Shown here: positions 10,877 to 16,748 of the stretch, one piece after another
Numbering within the stretch: position 1 is the first letter of the stretch
How the letters are laid out: every line of letters begins with the position of its first letter
NCBI GenBank assembly: GCA_000531095.1
Contig: HG799463.1
Location: forward strand, 770,132 to 834,131
DNA from: Gemmata massiliana
GTDB lineage: Bacteria; Planctomycetota; Planctomycetia; Gemmatales; Gemmataceae
Length of the DNA: 64,000 nucleotides
Reading direction: 5' to 3'
The notes under the pieces: model-generated
Seen by the model: only the letters and a program-made list of their open reading frames with translations
The model's database searches: none
Told to the model about the DNA's origin: nothing
Translations under genes and position numbers: made by a program

Positions 10877-11788
10877 GTGTCGCGCACCCGGTTCCTACTC
10901 ACGTTCTTTTTCGCGCTCTCCGCAATCAGCGCGGCCGACGCCAAGGCCGACAGTCTGTTTGTTCGGAAGGCGAAAGCGGTGGACGAGGCGAAAGCCCGCG
11001 CCTTGATCGAAACGCTGAAGAGCGATCCCGACGAAAAGAATCGCAAAACCGCGGCCGATGAACTCGGCGGCGCCGATCCGCGCATGTGCCCGGACGCGGC
11101 CCCCACTCTGATCACCGCACTCCGCAAAGACACGTCCGCTGGGGTTCGGGCCGAGGCCGCGAACTCGCTCCGCCAGTTAAATGAAGTGGTTCCGCAAGCC
11201 GGCGCCGCGTTGGAAATGGCTCTCGATAACGATCCGTCGCCGCTGGTGCGCCTCGCAGCGAAGCGGGCATTGTGGGTGTATCACCTGAACGGCTACCGTA
11301 CCGCGAAGAACGAGGACGGCACCGGCAACCAGACGATCGAACCGCCCATTGCCAGCCCGTCCGGTCCGCGCCAGGTGGTGGCCTTCATCCCTGCGCCGCC
11401 CGTGCCCGTGGCTTCGCCTCCAACGGAGCCCATCGCGGCAACGCCCGTCCCGCAGCTCCCGCCGGTCGCAGCCCGCCCCACGCCACAACCCGGTCCGCGG
11501 CTGTTCTGGCCGAACATCTTGCCCGGTCCGCGGTCCGCGGTTCGCGCGGCGCTGAACCTCCCGCCACTGGTGGTTTCAAGGGACGAACCGCCGCTGGCGA
11601 AGAAGCCCGCGGTACCGGCCGTCACGATGAGCACGCCGCCGAAGCACACGCCAGAACCGCCGCTCGTTCAGCACGTACCCGTACCGACAGTATCCGAATA
11701 CGTGCCGACGCTCCCTCCGTTCCAGCCGGACCTCCCGTCGGTGGTGTCTCCGCCCCTTCCCATCAGCAAGTTGAAGCAGCCTAAGTAG
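10877..11788 (+). CDS. exported HEAT-repeat protein with a proline-rich tail
   Basis: A 303-aa protein with a signal peptide (about 1-22), then two to three HEAT-like helical repeats (about 35-135: LIETLKSDPDEKNRKTAADELGG, then LITALRKD and SVRAEAANSLRQL-like units) and a long Pro/Ala/Val-rich, probably disordered tail (about 150-303). HEAT repeats bind proteins; the partner is unknown. The GTG start has GGAG upstream. A hairpin follows at 11803-11840. Confidence 0.75.
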   Translation: MSRTRFLLTFFFALSAISAADAKADSLFVRKAKAVDEAKARALIETLKSDPDEKNRKTAADELGGADPRMCPDAAPTLITALRKDTSAGVRAEAANSLRQLNEVVPQAGAALEMALDNDPSPLVRLAAKRALWVYHLNGYRTAKNEDGTGNQTIEPPIASPSGPRQVVAFIPAPPVPVASPPTEPIAATPVPQLPPVAARPTPQPGPRLFWPNILPGPRSAVRAALNLPPLVVSRDEPPLAKKPAVPAVTMSTPPKHTPEPPLVQHVPVPTVSEYVPTLPPFQPDLPSVVSPPLPISKLKQPK

Positions 11789-11802
11789 ATGTGAAGAACG
11801 CG

Positions 11803-11840
11803 CAGCCTTGTTCCCCGACATACCAGCGAGAACAAGGCTG
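11803..11840 (+). terminator. hairpin after the HEAT-repeat gene
   Basis: An 11-bp perfect stem, CAGCCTTGTTC with GAACAAGGCTG, around a 16-base loop, 14 bases after the stop codon. The U-tract is weak, so termination is inferred. Confidence 0.5.
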
Positions 11841-11960
11841 TGAATGCTGATAGAGAGCAGACGTTAAGCCATTTCTTGAACTAACACGCCCTTGCTTCGG
11901 TCACCTCAACTCGATACTGTCGGAGGGATTTCAACCCTAAAACTCGGGGAGGAGATCCCG

Positions 11961-13373
11961 ATGGGATTGGTAACCTTCGCACTTCTCGCATTCACGCAAG
12001 AAGCTCACGCTCGCCCATTTCTCCCGATTCTTCAAAAGGAAAAGTTAGTCGCGACAGACCGAATGCTCGACATTGCGATCGAAGGGGACGGGTACTTCCA
12101 AGCCACGAACTCTTGTGGGGACTGTCTGTATACGCGCGTCGGACGGTTGCACCGGAATGTTCAAGGCAGCTTGGAAACAAGCGAAGGTTATCTCCTCTCC
12201 CCCCAGATCACCGTGCCCGAAACAGCGACTGCGGTTGTGGTTGCCAGTGACGGTCTAGTTCACGCGCTTGTGCCAAATCACAAGCCCCAACCGCTCGGCC
12301 AAATTCTCCTCTACCGGTTCGCCCACCCGCAACATTTGCTGCCGTTCGAGCGCGGCTACGAGGTTGAAACCCACGAATCCGGCCCACCCAAGGTGAGCAA
12401 ACCGGGCAAGAATGGCGCGGGGAAGTTCCGTCAGCGCGCGATTAACGTTCCCCCGATTACCACATTCCCCCGCATACAACGAGGGACTTTGCAAGTAACC
12501 GGTAAACAGTTCGACTTGGCAATCGAAGGCGCAGGGTTCTTCCGAGTCACTACCCCCGCTGGCGAGACATTGTTCACCCGATACGGTCGGTTTCAGCAGG
12601 ACGCAAAGGGCCTACTGGTGACCGCCGAAGGCTATCACCTTAAGCCGCAACTTGCCGTGCCGCTAAATCCAGTCGGGGGCGTCGCGGTCTGTCTCGACGG
12701 GACCGTCACGGCTGTCGTTCGCGAGGACTTCAACGAAGCGGTTCTTGTCGGCTACCTCACAGTCGCTCGGTTCCCAAATCCGGGCGATCTGGTGAAAGCG
12801 AAAGGGTCGTATTATAAGGAGTCCAAACAGTCAGGTGCAGCAATCGAAAGCGACCCCGGTTCACGGAACGTGGGCATCGTGCGCCAGGGTTACCTCGACC
12901 GGACATCGTACATTCCGCTGCAACCGGAGAGTCAGTTCGTTCCCACGGCTCGGTGTTTCGACCTCGCGATCGAGGGGCAAGGGTTCTTCGAGGTCCAAAC
13001 GCCCGCAGGCGAGCGCCGGTTCACACGGCGTGGGCGCTTTCATGTCAACACCGACGGGATGCTCGAAACACGGGACGGGTACCTTCTCCAACCGCCGGTC
13101 GCGCTCCGCCTGGACACGGTCGCCGTATCCATCGAGCCCGACGGAACGGTTCGCACGCAAGTTAAGTCCCAAAAAGAGCCGGTGCGCGCGGGACAGATCG
13201 CGCTCGCGCGGTTCGCGGACCCATCCGGGCTTGGTCAGGTCAACGAGTATTACTTCGAGCCTTCCAAGTTCTCGGGACCGGCAAAGCGACTCGTTCTCGG
13301 AACGAACGGCACCGACAAAGTGTGGCAGGGGTTCCTCGAACGACCACTCCAAGGAGCAGGCGGACGCAACTAG
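11961..13373 (+). CDS. secreted protein with three tandem FlgG-like flagellar hook/rod domains
   Basis: A 470-aa protein. The ATG at 11961 follows GGAGGAG and begins a short signal-peptide-like segment (about 1-17). Three repeats of about 148 residues begin at about 36, 184 and 333. Each opens with D(I/L)AIEGxGxF, then TRxGRF(or L)..., then an SEGYLL/AEGYHL/RDGYLL motif, a (V/I)xxDGxV strand, a GQI-x-L-xRF motif and an ESG/QSG/FSGP block before a terminal G..QG(Y/F)L. This is the order of the FlgG distal-rod/hook-basal-body central domain. The N- and C-terminal coiled helices and the flagellar export segment are absent, and no flagellar gene is nearby. Probably an exported structural or adhesive beta-protein; its function is unknown. 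Confidence 0.75.
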   Translation: MGLVTFALLAFTQEAHARPFLPILQKEKLVATDRMLDIAIEGDGYFQATNSCGDCLYTRVGRLHRNVQGSLETSEGYLLSPQITVPETATAVVVASDGLVHALVPNHKPQPLGQILLYRFAHPQHLLPFERGYEVETHESGPPKVSKPGKNGAGKFRQRAINVPPITTFPRIQRGTLQVTGKQFDLAIEGAGFFRVTTPAGETLFTRYGRFQQDAKGLLVTAEGYHLKPQLAVPLNPVGGVAVCLDGTVTAVVREDFNEAVLVGYLTVARFPNPGDLVKAKGSYYKESKQSGAAIESDPGSRNVGIVRQGYLDRTSYIPLQPESQFVPTARCFDLAIEGQGFFEVQTPAGERRFTRRGRFHVNTDGMLETRDGYLLQPPVALRLDTVAVSIEPDGTVRTQVKSQKEPVRAGQIALARFADPSGLGQVNEYYFEPSKFSGPAKRLVLGTNGTDKVWQGFLERPLQGAGGRN

Positions 13374-13503
13374 CAAGCAATCCGCTACAGATTACTGATC
13401 CGATGCTGCGCCGCCGACTACGCGGGCGGCCGAGATGTGTGGCTGATAGCCCTTGCGGGGCAAAGATGGGAAACCATTTTCCGCAGGGCACGATCGTACT
13501 TCG

Positions 13504-14460
13504 TTACGCTCCCTGAATCAGCCGGATCGCCTGCTGCGCGGCCTGGCGCAGAGGTTCGGCGCCGCTGCGGGCCGCTTCGCGCAGATCCACCAGCGCCCCC
13601 GAGGCCGCAGATCCGATCCGCCCCAGTGCCTGTGCTGCGTGGACCCGGCAGGTCATTTCCGATGAGGTCGGGTCCGGTACCGGCAGTTGAGCCGGGGTGA
13701 GCGCCTCGCTGTTCGGCATTTCGATGGCCGTCGGCGTGAGGGACGAAATCGGCGTGCGCGTGAGCGGGCACTCGGGTCCGCGAAGCACACGAGCGAGGAA
13801 CGGGACCGCGGACCGGGCCGAAACGCCCATCCAGCCGATGGCGATGGCCGATTCCGCCCGCACGAACGGGTCCGCGTGTTGCAAGTGTGCAATGAGAGTC
13901 GCGAGCGCCGGCGCACCGATCTGACTCAGCGCCTTGGACGCGAGCCGGCACAGCACGATGTTCGTTCCGCGCATCGCTTCGGCCAGAAGCGGGACGCTCT
14001 CCGCGCCGTCCGCCCCCATATTGCCGAGCGCCTGAGCCGCGCCGGACGCGGTTCGCGGATCGGGATCTTTGAGCGAGTTACACAAGTCTTCGAGAGCGGG
14101 ACGTGCGAGCGGGCCGAGTTTCCCGAGTGCCCAAACCGCGTTCCGCCGAACGTACTTGTCGGCGTGGCCGAGCATCAGGACGAGTGTCCCGAGCGCGTCC
14201 GGCCCCATTCCGCCGATCGCGTGGGCGGCCGTTTCGCGCACCTTGGCGTTCTCGTCGTCGAGAGCGCGAACCAAGGCGGGCATCGCGTCGCGCGCGAGCC
14301 ACCCCAGGCGCCCCAAATCCTTGGCCGCACGCTGCCGGTCCACCACGTTCGTGCTCCGCAGCGCACGAACGAGTGCGGGCAGCGGATCGTCGGCGGTCGC
14401 ACCTGGTTGTTGCACGCTTCCGTCGCTCACCACAGGAACCGAGCGGTTGACTCCTGGCAA
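13504..14460 (-). CDS. HEAT-repeat protein
   Basis: A 318-aa protein made largely of HEAT/PBS-lyase-like helical repeats from about residue 25 to 230 (LVRALRSTNVVDRQRAA..., DAMPALVRALDDENAKVRETAAHAIG and similar units), then a less regular segment and one more repeat near the C-terminus. No signal peptide was seen, so it is probably cytoplasmic and binds a protein. The frame opens at a TTG (14460) without a good ribosome-binding site; GTG codons a few residues inside are alternatives. No enzyme motif is present. Confidence 0.75.
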   Translation of the reverse strand: MPGVNRSVPVVSDGSVQQPGATADDPLPALVRALRSTNVVDRQRAAKDLGRLGWLARDAMPALVRALDDENAKVRETAAHAIGGMGPDALGTLVLMLGHADKYVRRNAVWALGKLGPLARPALEDLCNSLKDPDPRTASGAAQALGNMGADGAESVPLLAEAMRGTNIVLCRLASKALSQIGAPALATLIAHLQHADPFVRAESAIAIGWMGVSARSAVPFLARVLRGPECPLTRTPISSLTPTAIEMPNSEALTPAQLPVPDPTSSEMTCRVHAAQALGRIGSAASGALVDLREAARSGAEPLRQAAQQAIRLIQGA

Positions 14461-14594
14461 CCACTGACAACCTTAGCTCACCCTCACCATGCGGCAACCG
14501 ACTCACTACGTTTTGACTGTGCGCGAACTTTGGATTGGGCATGGGGCCGAAAATTCAGCACGGGCAAGAGCCGCTATGTTCGTTGCGTGAAAGT

Positions 14595-15248
14595 TCATTG
14601 AGCTTCCGAACCGACCCGGTCCTCCGCGTTGGCCTCTTGTTGCGAATACCCGCGGGTCCGCCAATCGTTCCAGGTGATTCGAGCAAGGGCGATGAAGAGC
14701 AGAGCACAAACGGCTCGGGTGAAGCCGGTGTTGAACACGACGCTGGCGTTGAACACGACGAACCCCGTGAACCCGTAAACCGCCCACGTGATCCAACGCG
14801 GGCGGCTCAGGTACGAATCGAACGCGACCCACACCCACACCACATCTGCGACCCACACCAGCGCGAAGGCGTAGTTCACGAAGATCCCGTTACCGTATCC
14901 GCCCACTTCGCGCGTGTGCTCCCACGCCACCTCGTGCGACCACCCGTGTGCGAGGTGGAACGCGACCGCTATGTGAAGCACGCACATTGCGCAGCCCCAC
15001 GTGTAGATGGCGCGCACGAAAATTGTTGCCGGTTCCCCGCAGCGCCGGGCGAACGCGAGTGGGAAACCCGTTACCCACCCCATTACCGCCCCGAACGCCG
15101 TTTCCTGAATCGCCGGGTGCTGGGGGTTCATTTGTGCGGGGCCGAACAGCGAAAGAAGCCCGTTAGTAGCAAGCAGAATGCAATTCAGCAGCACGATCAC
15201 ACCCGTTCCACGAGCCGGATGCGATTGAACCCGCTCCGCTTCTGCCAT
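14595..15248 (-). CDS. integral membrane protein, unknown function
   Basis: A 217-aa protein with about six predicted transmembrane helices (around 15-38, 48-66, 78-102, 118-140, 147-170, 172-192). Its histidine/tryptophan-rich loops (HLAHGWSHEVAWEH) recall small haem- or metal-binding membrane proteins, but I recognise no family. The ATG is preceded by a strong GGAGAGGTGATGT sequence. It is transcribed away from the pyruvate kinase gene, so the 60-base gap is a shared divergent promoter region. Confidence 0.7.
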   Translation of the reverse strand: MAEAERVQSHPARGTGVIVLLNCILLATNGLLSLFGPAQMNPQHPAIQETAFGAVMGWVTGFPLAFARRCGEPATIFVRAIYTWGCAMCVLHIAVAFHLAHGWSHEVAWEHTREVGGYGNGIFVNYAFALVWVADVVWVWVAFDSYLSRPRWITWAVYGFTGFVVFNASVVFNTGFTRAVCALLFIALARITWNDWRTRGYSQQEANAEDRVGSEAQ

Positions 15249-15308
15249 ACATCACCTCTCCTCTCCTTGTACTCAGCAGCCCCAGTTTACTCGACGGAGC
15301 AGTGCGCA

Positions 15309-16748
15309 ATGAGTCGCCGAACGAAGATCGTCTCCACGCTCGGGCCGGCGACCGATTCACCGGACGTTCTGGACGCGATCCTGCGGGCCGGTGTCGATGT
15401 GGCCCGCGTCAACTTCTCCCACGGCGCACCAGAAGAACACATCGGCCGGGTCGCGAACTTCCGCGCGGCCGCTCAGCGCGTGGGCAAATTCGCCGCGGTC
15501 CTCGCCGACCTCCCCGGGCCGAAGCTCCGCGTGAAGATTTCCTCGCTCCGCTTCCTCAACGCGGGGGACAAGGTCCACTTCTCGCTCACGAGCACGCCGG
15601 TCGACGTTTCCGACCTGGTCATCACCGAACCGGAGATGCTCGCGGACGTGCGCCCCGGGCACCGGATGCTCCTCGACGACGGGCGGCTCCAACTGGAAGC
15701 GGGCGAAATCAGCGACGGGCGCGTCGTCGCCCGGGTCGTGGTGGGCGGCACGCTCCACCCGAACAAGGGGCTGAACCTGCCGGACACGCCGCTCACGATG
15801 GCCGCGCTCACCGAACGGGACCACGGCGCGCTGGCTGTGGCCGCGCGCGCGGGGGTGGATTGGGTCGCGGTTTCGTTCGTGCGCGGGCCGGAAGCCGCGG
15901 ACGAAGTGCGCGCCGCGTGTGCGGCTCTGGGAATGAACGTTCCGGTCCTCGCGAAGATCGAGCGCCCCGAAGCGGTCGGGCGCGCGGGGGCGATCGTAGC
16001 CGCGTTCGACGCGATCATGGTGGCACGCGGAGATTTGGGCGTCGAACTGCCACTGGAGCGCGTGCCGACCGTGCAGAAGAGGCTGATCGCCGAAGCGCGG
16101 GCGGCCGGGAAGCCGGTCATCACCGCGACGGACATGCTCGACTCGATGCGGAACAACCCGCGCCCGACGCGCGCCGAAGCGAGCGACGTGGCGAACGCGA
16201 TCTTCGACGGCACCGACGCCGTCATGCTGTCCGGCGAAACGGCCGTCGGCTCGTACCCGATCGAGGCGGTCGCGTGCATGCACCGTATCGCGGTCGAAAC
16301 CGAATCGCACCTGCGCCACTCGCGCACGCCCCACACGATGTCGTTCGACGCGGCCAGCGACGACATCGACAACACCATCACCCTGGCCGCGTGCTCGCTC
16401 GCCGACGAGGTGAACGCCTCGGCCATCGTGACACCGACGCTCTCGGGGCGCACGGCCAAACTGGTCACGCGGAACCGCCCGTGGACGCCCGTCGTGGCGG
16501 TCGCGCCCACCGACGCGATATTACAGCGCCTGGCGCTCGTGTGGGGAATCACGCCCGTGCGTATGACACCGGTCGCGCCGGGCGGGGACCGCATGGCCAC
16601 CGCTGTGGAAGATGCGTTCAAAGCCGGCACGGTGGCCCCGGGCGAGCGCGTCGTGATCCTCGCCGGGCACCCGATCGCGGGCGGCCCGCGGTTCCCCACG
16701 GTCCGCGTCGTTCGCGTCGGCGAAGGCGGCACGTCCTGCGAGCCGTAG
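15309..16748 (+). CDS. pyk: pyruvate kinase
   Basis: Glycolytic enzyme converting phosphoenolpyruvate and ADP to pyruvate and ATP, 479 aa. It begins MSRRTKIVSTLGPATDSP, the standard N-terminus. ARVNFSHG carries phosphate-binding residues, LAKIERPEA has the catalytic lysine, MVARGDLGVELP the metal ligands and MLSGETAVGSYP the conserved Thr region. A C-terminal allosteric-type domain is present. The frame runs open from 14535, but the ATG at 15309 with GGAG upstream is the homology-supported start. It is a single gene; a large inverted repeat follows. Confidence 0.96.
   Translation: MSRRTKIVSTLGPATDSPDVLDAILRAGVDVARVNFSHGAPEEHIGRVANFRAAAQRVGKFAAVLADLPGPKLRVKISSLRFLNAGDKVHFSLTSTPVDVSDLVITEPEMLADVRPGHRMLLDDGRLQLEAGEISDGRVVARVVVGGTLHPNKGLNLPDTPLTMAALTERDHGALAVAARAGVDWVAVSFVRGPEAADEVRAACAALGMNVPVLAKIERPEAVGRAGAIVAAFDAIMVARGDLGVELPLERVPTVQKRLIAEARAAGKPVITATDMLDSMRNNPRPTRAEASDVANAIFDGTDAVMLSGETAVGSYPIEAVACMHRIAVETESHLRHSRTPHTMSFDAASDDIDNTITLAACSLADEVNASAIVTPTLSGRTAKLVTRNRPWTPVVAVAPTDAILQRLALVWGITPVRMTPVAPGGDRMATAVEDAFKAGTVAPGERVVILAGHPIAGGPRFPTVRVVRVGEGGTSCEP

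Follow-up and report, generated by a model that had tools for sequence, protein, structure and literature searches.

A leader-bearing protein with three FlgG-type D1 domains in tandem, encoded outside flagellar loci in Gemmata massiliana and its relatives

Proteins of the flagellar rod and hook are regarded as made for flagellar export and polymerisation. FlgG (TIGR02488; structures 6jf2, 6jzr and 7cbm) has a single D1 domain in about 260 residues, and FlgE and FlgF carry D1 domains of the same superfamily (PF22692). Assembly of the rod and hook uses D0, that is, the terminal helices, plus D1 (PMC5288503). One more described structure is relevant here: in gamma-proteobacteria the empty rings of shed flagella are filled by an unidentified protein, believed by the authors of PMC6424402 not to be sent through the flagellar exporter. 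This relic plug is described there as density only, with no sequence for comparison; its likeness to the protein studied here is that it would need to occupy the distal-rod position without being a T3SS substrate.

The window, a stretch of 64,000 nucleotides on contig C2 of the 9.27-Mb Gemmata massiliana genome (G000), encodes a 470-residue protein that we identify, with high confidence, as a tandem FlgG-type D1 protein (Table 1). Its start is supported by a ribosome-binding site, GGGGAGGAG, directly 5' of the ATG at 11961, and by the frame of the G008 orthologue, which opens just seven residues 5' of the same ATG. An earlier note on this DNA had described three FlgG-type repeats of about 148 residues, and all three are recovered: Pfam reports LlgE_F_G_D1 (PF22692) three times (E 1.7e-59), the motif D-I/L-A-I-E-G recurs at residues 37, 185 and 334 with a period of 148/149, and the repeat-pair scores are 205, 246 and 215, whereas 500 shuffles per pair gave at most 47, 46 and 73. 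Repeat b is 35% identical to repeat a and 42% identical to repeat c. Both rod helices are indeed missing, as the note had stated: at E 0.01 Pfam reports neither Flg_bb_rod nor Flg_bbr_C, and nothing besides the three PF22692 stretches in the entire protein, whereas FlgG of the same genome yields both (2.1e-5 and 2.4e-19, respectively). Still, the NCBIfam FlgG model (TIGR02488) gives a score of 334.3 against a cut-off of 252.75, which is passed because the partial scores of three stretches add up; an automatic pipeline could misname the protein FlgG.

Table 1. Features of the three-D1 locus in the window, and members of the anchored family
Feature	Position	Strand	Basis or remark
Gene of the three-D1 protein	11961..13373	+	ORF, Pfam, ribosome-binding site, G008 frame
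Signal-like leader, residues 1-17 (MGLVTFALLAFTQEAHA)	11961..12011	+	Hydropathy of the hydrophobic core
D1 repeat a	12045..12464	+	Pfam, repeat comparison
D1 repeat b, the repeat with the highest divergence from G008	12489..12914	+	Pfam, repeat comparison, pN/pS
D1 repeat c (modelled as 12927-13358)	12936..13358	+	Pfam, model, Foldseek, VIA
Insert carrying the three-D1 gene, about 1.7 kb	11798..13504	.	Ends from comparison with G012
Upstream HEAT-repeat gene, insert flank (outside the insert)	10877..11788	+	Pfam, synteny
Downstream convergent HEAT-repeat gene, insert flank	13504..14460	-	Pfam, synteny
Perfect 11-bp inverted repeat CAGCCTTGTTC/GAACAAGGCTG, 16-nt loop	11803..11840	.	Between the HEAT-repeat gene and the three-D1 gene
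Central block, apparent recombinational exchange compared with G008	12200..12900 (ends approximate)	.	100-base identity bins
Anchored family members	L112-L121, L124-L134, L052		f4 genomes

Among solved structures, the best phmmer match is FlgG (6jzr, E 2.9e-23), followed by FlgE (7.3e-9). A single-sequence model of the whole protein was useless (pLDDT 32.9), and repeat c was modelled from a four-row alignment of the three window repeats and the planctomycete FlgG-domain protein L029, with pLDDT 84.2. The best Foldseek matches of this model are distal-rod chains (top E 6.9e-11). In VIA, with matches below rank 21 (Z <=3.5) disregarded, it superposes on residues 92-217 of the FlgG fragment 6jf2_A with Z 17.7 and rmsd 1.5 Å over 126 residues, and the D1 of FlgE (Z 17.8) ties at the top with the D1s of FlgG (Z 17.7). 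The structural likeness to rod and hook domains proposed earlier is thus borne out by the model. As the structures match and the sequence is nearest to FlgG, each repeat reads as a whole D1, of FlgG type judging from sequence. The D1 of FlgE superposes as well as that of FlgG, but by sequence the repeats are nearer to FlgG than to FlgE, with approximately 32-35% identity to the D1 of Salmonella FlgG. FlgG itself differs in having N- and C-terminal helices, no signal-like leader, and a place in a flagellar locus.

The leader, which the earlier note had called Sec-like, fits this description in part. Its core LVTFALLAF has a mean hydropathy of 2.68 (2.36 in the G016 orthologue), and its end, judged by eye, is A-x-A-like (AHA followed by RPF); on the other hand, it is short, and its n-region carries no positive charge. 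A leader-like start is present in all three orthologues (G000, G008 and G016), which in effect are two independent leaders, as that of G008 is identical to the one in the window. The protein is therefore predicted, with good though not full confidence, to be exported, and the leader would argue against export via the flagellar type III apparatus.

The gene resides in a GC-poor insert. Homology to G012 ends at window position 11797 and restarts at approximately 13505; the GC content of the insert is 58.7%, compared to 65.6% in the window (59.7% in the plasmid orthologue described below), and at third codon positions the gene has a GC of 0.664, compared to 0.785-0.927 in six neighbours. The syntenic region was fetched from eight relatives. 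In G012, G004 and G001 both flanking HEAT-repeat genes, a phosphoesterase gene and a pyruvate kinase gene are found in order, with the three-D1 gene absent between the flanks; only the downstream HEAT-repeat gene and the genes beyond it are found in G002, and only the downstream HEAT-repeat gene (present in 16 of 19 genomes of the genus) in G016, G010, G011 and G013. The simplest reading is insertion of the gene into the site between the HEAT-repeat genes; a possible alternative is gene loss in the other relatives. A remnant of a flagellar operon was also considered, and is ruled out by the same flanks without the three-D1 gene in G012, G004 and G001. No flanking direct repeat was recognised at the insert. 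The 11-bp inverted repeat is a possible terminator, lacking a T run.

Full-length three-D1 proteins have been found in three of 95 genomes of the family, all from one genus group; the G008 and G016 proteins are 77% and 55% identical to that of the window. Of 392 genomes sampled across the phylum, G008 and G016 not among them, only G000 matched over the full length at E 1e-35; matches in three others covered a single repeat. In G008 the gene has the same neighbours as in the window and lies more than 5 Mb from the flagellar genes. The G016 orthologue, identified in a plasmid search, is WP_171476311.1 (FTUN_RS40285), annotated as “hypothetical protein”; while full-length like the window protein, it is plasmid-borne, being encoded on the 24,691-base plasmid pPL17-1 of Frigoriglobus tundricola PL17, where the gene adjoins an integrase gene near the replication initiator. 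Hence neither orthologue is in a flagellar operon, in agreement with the earlier reading. Two scans of viral contigs yielded nothing, one phage record matched at E 4e-6, and a scan of genome contigs with poor patterns gave four loci, none of them a three-D1 protein.

Compared with its G008 orthologue, the gene in the window looks exchanged in a central block. The two genomes are 92% identical across 18 kb, and 100-base bins are 86-94% identical in most of the gene, as opposed to 55-82% in the central block, with the adjoining bins at 93% and 94%. Repeat a has a pS of 0.365, repeat b of 0.587 and repeat c of 0.150, compared to 0.078-0.218 in six neighbours. As silent divergence is raised, this points to replacement of the central block by a diverged copy rather than fast change of the protein, and since repeat b of G000 still pairs with that of G008 (91/89), the donor is suggested to be another three-D1 allele, not FlgG. 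The protein itself is under purifying selection, as pN is lower than pS in every repeat and each orthologue pair (for the whole gene, 0.137 and 0.356 between G000 and G008, and 0.285 and 0.671 between G000 and G016), with pN/pS being higher than in the six neighbours compared. Given the plasmid orthologue, the GC-poor insert absent in relatives, and the exchanged central block, the gene looks horizontally mobile, and this is well supported. The D1 fold is known, while the three-D1 architecture and its distribution, the insert, the plasmid copy and the exchanged block are new; a title-level literature search found no paper on FlgG-like or exported FlgG proteins of planctomycetes.

All three carriers have D1 hits read as FlgE, FlgF and FlgG, FHIPEP (FlhA), and true FlgI (E 2.4e-116 or better), and cells of the related Gemmata obscuriglobus are reported in PMC2656463 to carry a tuft of flagella. 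In G000 the hits read as FlgG, FlgF and FlgE are on contig C12, next to ORFs read by eye as FlgA, FlgH, FlgI, FlgJ and FlgK (the true FlgI matches its profile at E 1.6e-118), FlhA is on contig C5, and a FlgG-like protein with rod-like ends, L003, is on contig C15. Thus the absence of flagellar genes near the three-D1 gene, noted earlier, holds for the markers searched, and so does the conclusion that the rod/hook fold has been reused in a leader-bearing protein without terminal helices outside a flagellar locus. A promoter scan found one sigma-28-like match with three mismatches upstream of the window gene and none upstream of the G008 and G016 genes; it had no power, as the flgE control gave only a sigma-54-like match with three mismatches.

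FHIPEP is present in 35 of 95 genomes of the family, one of these cases (G099) resting on a 50-residue match. Outside the family it was rejected as a marker of flagella, and FlgI used instead, because f3 genomes such as G044 and G053 carry FHIPEP of the FlhA type without FlgE, FlgF or FlgG; there it is probably the gate of a non-flagellar type III export system. A second, FlgI-like protein is seen in 29 of the 30 planctomycete genomes searched (all except G081; e.g., G000:C11:201706-202434), in frames of approximately 596-900 residues, with the match falling within positions 2-268 of the FlgI model; G016 also has a 163-residue frame. As it occurs in genomes without flagellar markers too, it is a non-flagellar FlgI-like protein.

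FlgG-domain proteins with leaders or membrane anchors are recurrent in Planctomycetia; together with the apparent mobility and the flagellar genes of the host, they go beyond what the earlier note contained. One is encoded on the same contig C2 (L050:4747-5520, 258 residues), and resembles the three-D1 protein in its leader-like start, its FlgG D1 and the rod helices not being found, but has one D1 with a short tail. The Pirellulales record L029 encodes a FlgG-domain protein with a signal-like start that is similar to the anchored proteins of f4. These form a larger family in f4, of the same class, where matches to its N-terminal profile occur in 24 of the 27 sampled genomes, counting those that start at or before profile position 129, since matches further on hit FlgG itself. 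These proteins (e.g., L113:7109-8734) share with the window protein a D1 outside the FlgG/FlgF locus, and differ in their architecture: an N-terminal hydrophobic membrane anchor (by eye), a long linker, a conserved W-motif region, a single D1, and remnants of the motifs of both FlgG ends. Sequences were read from 22 of the 24 genomes (all but G127 and G183), all with a D1 by our own profile, and only D1, rod-end and FlgB/E/F/G-type matches were obtained from Pfam (n=5) and NCBIfam (n=3). The N-terminal profile has no match in G000 at E 1e-5.

Three f4 genomes that are 98-99% complete, G142, G145 and G174, encode the anchored protein without a true FlgI, having only the longer FlgI-like frame; no FlgE, FlgF or FlgG was found in them, with zero, one and one D1 hits at E 1e-6, respectively, that of G145 being the anchored protein. 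Hence D1 proteins can exist without a flagellum. Overall, the evidence from Gemmataceae and f4 on the dependence of D1 proteins on flagella is mixed. In G089, which has neither FHIPEP nor true FlgI, both D1 genes (L059, leader-bearing with a single D1, and the FlgG-like L107) appear frame-shifted, reflecting either decay after loss of the flagellum or an assembly error. G001 (L027/L109) and G010 (L045/L110) encode intact FlgG-like proteins with rod-like ends, again without FHIPEP or true FlgI. The single-D1 protein of G081 (L060:4331-5071) starts with a lipobox-like AAVVGC and is perhaps a lipoprotein version.

Phylogenetic trees place the three-D1 protein less firmly. The first tree comprised 110 D1s, after removal of D1 matches shorter than 100 model positions (which removes FlgE) and of row L074. 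Here the nine repeats form one clade (97/89) ordered by repeat position, and the domain was therefore triplicated before the three genomes diverged; the neighbour of the clade is the anchored f4 family (94/86). In the second tree, which gained 11 anchored sequences and lost 30 rows (27 of FlgF, including the long L023, as well as L060, L073 and L107), the repeats group with FlgG (87/84), and the very long anchored row L130 falls among them, probably due to long-branch attraction. Neither placement is rejected by AU tests (p 0.577 and 0.657). The unconstrained tree scored worse than each of the two constrained ones, so that the tree search itself is unsettled. The sister relation of the triple protein and the anchored family is seen in one tree, with FlgG taking that place in the other. 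The repeats are outside FlgF in both trees. The single-D1 protein of L050 is among FlgG of Gemmataceae in both trees, unlike the triple protein, and thus has a separate origin; neither tree supports a shared origin of these two leader-bearing G000 proteins. Rod domains bearing a leader or an anchor, in tandem, and once on a plasmid provide concrete genes for studying the rod domain outside the rod.

As the best explanation we tentatively propose, at somewhat less than even confidence, that the protein is an exported, soluble three-D1 rod and a candidate binder of a partner of the FlgG D1. In a flagellated planctomycete, the leader would route it via Sec to the cell surface or into the periplasm, and there it would remain a soluble rod of three domains. 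Its D1 faces, unpacked from the rod, could then bind the partner that normally meets the FlgG D1; the simplest choices would be the flagellar rod/hook base and, alternatively, the inner wall of the P/L-ring bushing. Such binding might seal the ring, or else alter or block assembly or rotation. Our best guess, a weakly supported one, is a binding module of the envelope whose site of action is the rod or its rings, and a flagellum-related target is possible with more doubt than confidence. A self-built filament is unlikely, as D0, with both terminal helices, is absent; the polymerisation suggested in the earlier note, which would need D0 alongside D1, is accordingly not supported. The suggestion that the protein is a component of an undescribed system is also weak: it has no conserved partner gene, being inserted between HEAT-repeat genes here and plasmid cargo in Frigoriglobus. 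The net charge differs between true FlgG D1s, acidic in all 31 fetched rows (-3 to -10), and the repeats of the three-D1 proteins, near neutral in nine of nine (-2 to +2). Negative charge on the FlgG D1 has been proposed in PMC5288503 to hold the rod and the LP ring apart, and neutral D1s would fit binding to the rings or rod rather than turning inside them; this is suggestive only. The D1s of the leader-bearing proteins of G089 and G081 are acidic as well (-6 and -5), so the change is not general and may be simply drift.

The target need not be flagellar. With comparable probability, and likewise doubtful on balance, the protein could be a non-flagellar component of the envelope or matrix, using the D1 beta-fold as a sturdy module that binds glycans, the wall or other cells. 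This would agree with the lack of flagellar neighbours of the three-D1 gene, with anchored FlgG-domain proteins in genomes without flagellar markers, and with intact FlgG-like frames in G010 and G001, which lack FHIPEP and true FlgI; anchored relatives in genomes that lack true FlgI argue against an exclusively flagellar role. However, the gene content of each of the three carriers is that of a flagellated bacterium, and the D1 sequence is closer to FlgG (2.9e-23 to 6jzr) than a free scaffold seems to need. Three carriers, two of them closely related, make no real statistical link to flagella, and a gene that is rare and once plasmid-borne is no conserved flagellar part. A leader-exported rod-domain protein would be a natural candidate for a planctomycete ring plug, and both the three-D1 and the anchored proteins are candidates for a filler of empty flagellar rings. 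In its broadest form, which we consider a long shot, Planctomycetia would have repeatedly made leader-bearing or anchored rod-D1 proteins that occupy or bind either the bushing of the P/L rings or the second FlgI-like protein, without the flagellar exporter, as a rod-independent plug or gate of the outer envelope, the window protein being a mobile variant with exchangeable domains.

Mobility also lends itself to an explanation by conflict, in which the gene would be cargo encoding an exported mimic of the rod domain directed against flagella or agents that use them (phage, rival plasmids) and diversifying by domain exchange. The integrase gene adjoining the plasmid orthologue, the single-gene insert, and the exchange of the central block (repeat b has a pS of 0.587, against 0.150 for repeat c) agree with it; nevertheless we consider it unlikely, given that pN below pS in every repeat gives no sign of positive selection, that the FlgG D1, enclosed by rings, would be a poor target for phage, and that the viral data amount to one phage record (E 4e-6), with no relative in viral contigs. 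Very unlikely, in our view, is a functionless FlgG duplicate in decay: the lower GC content, the higher pN/pS than in six neighbours and the rare distribution would fit, but three genomes, the most distant at 55% identity, keep the gene intact, pN is 0.285 vs. pS 0.671 between G000 and G016, and the repeat length is kept at 148/149.

Among the genes beyond the insert, the pyruvate kinase gene (window 14535-16748) encodes an N-terminal extension of approximately 255 residues before the barrel domain, and its product aligns over the full length with that of G012 (79%).
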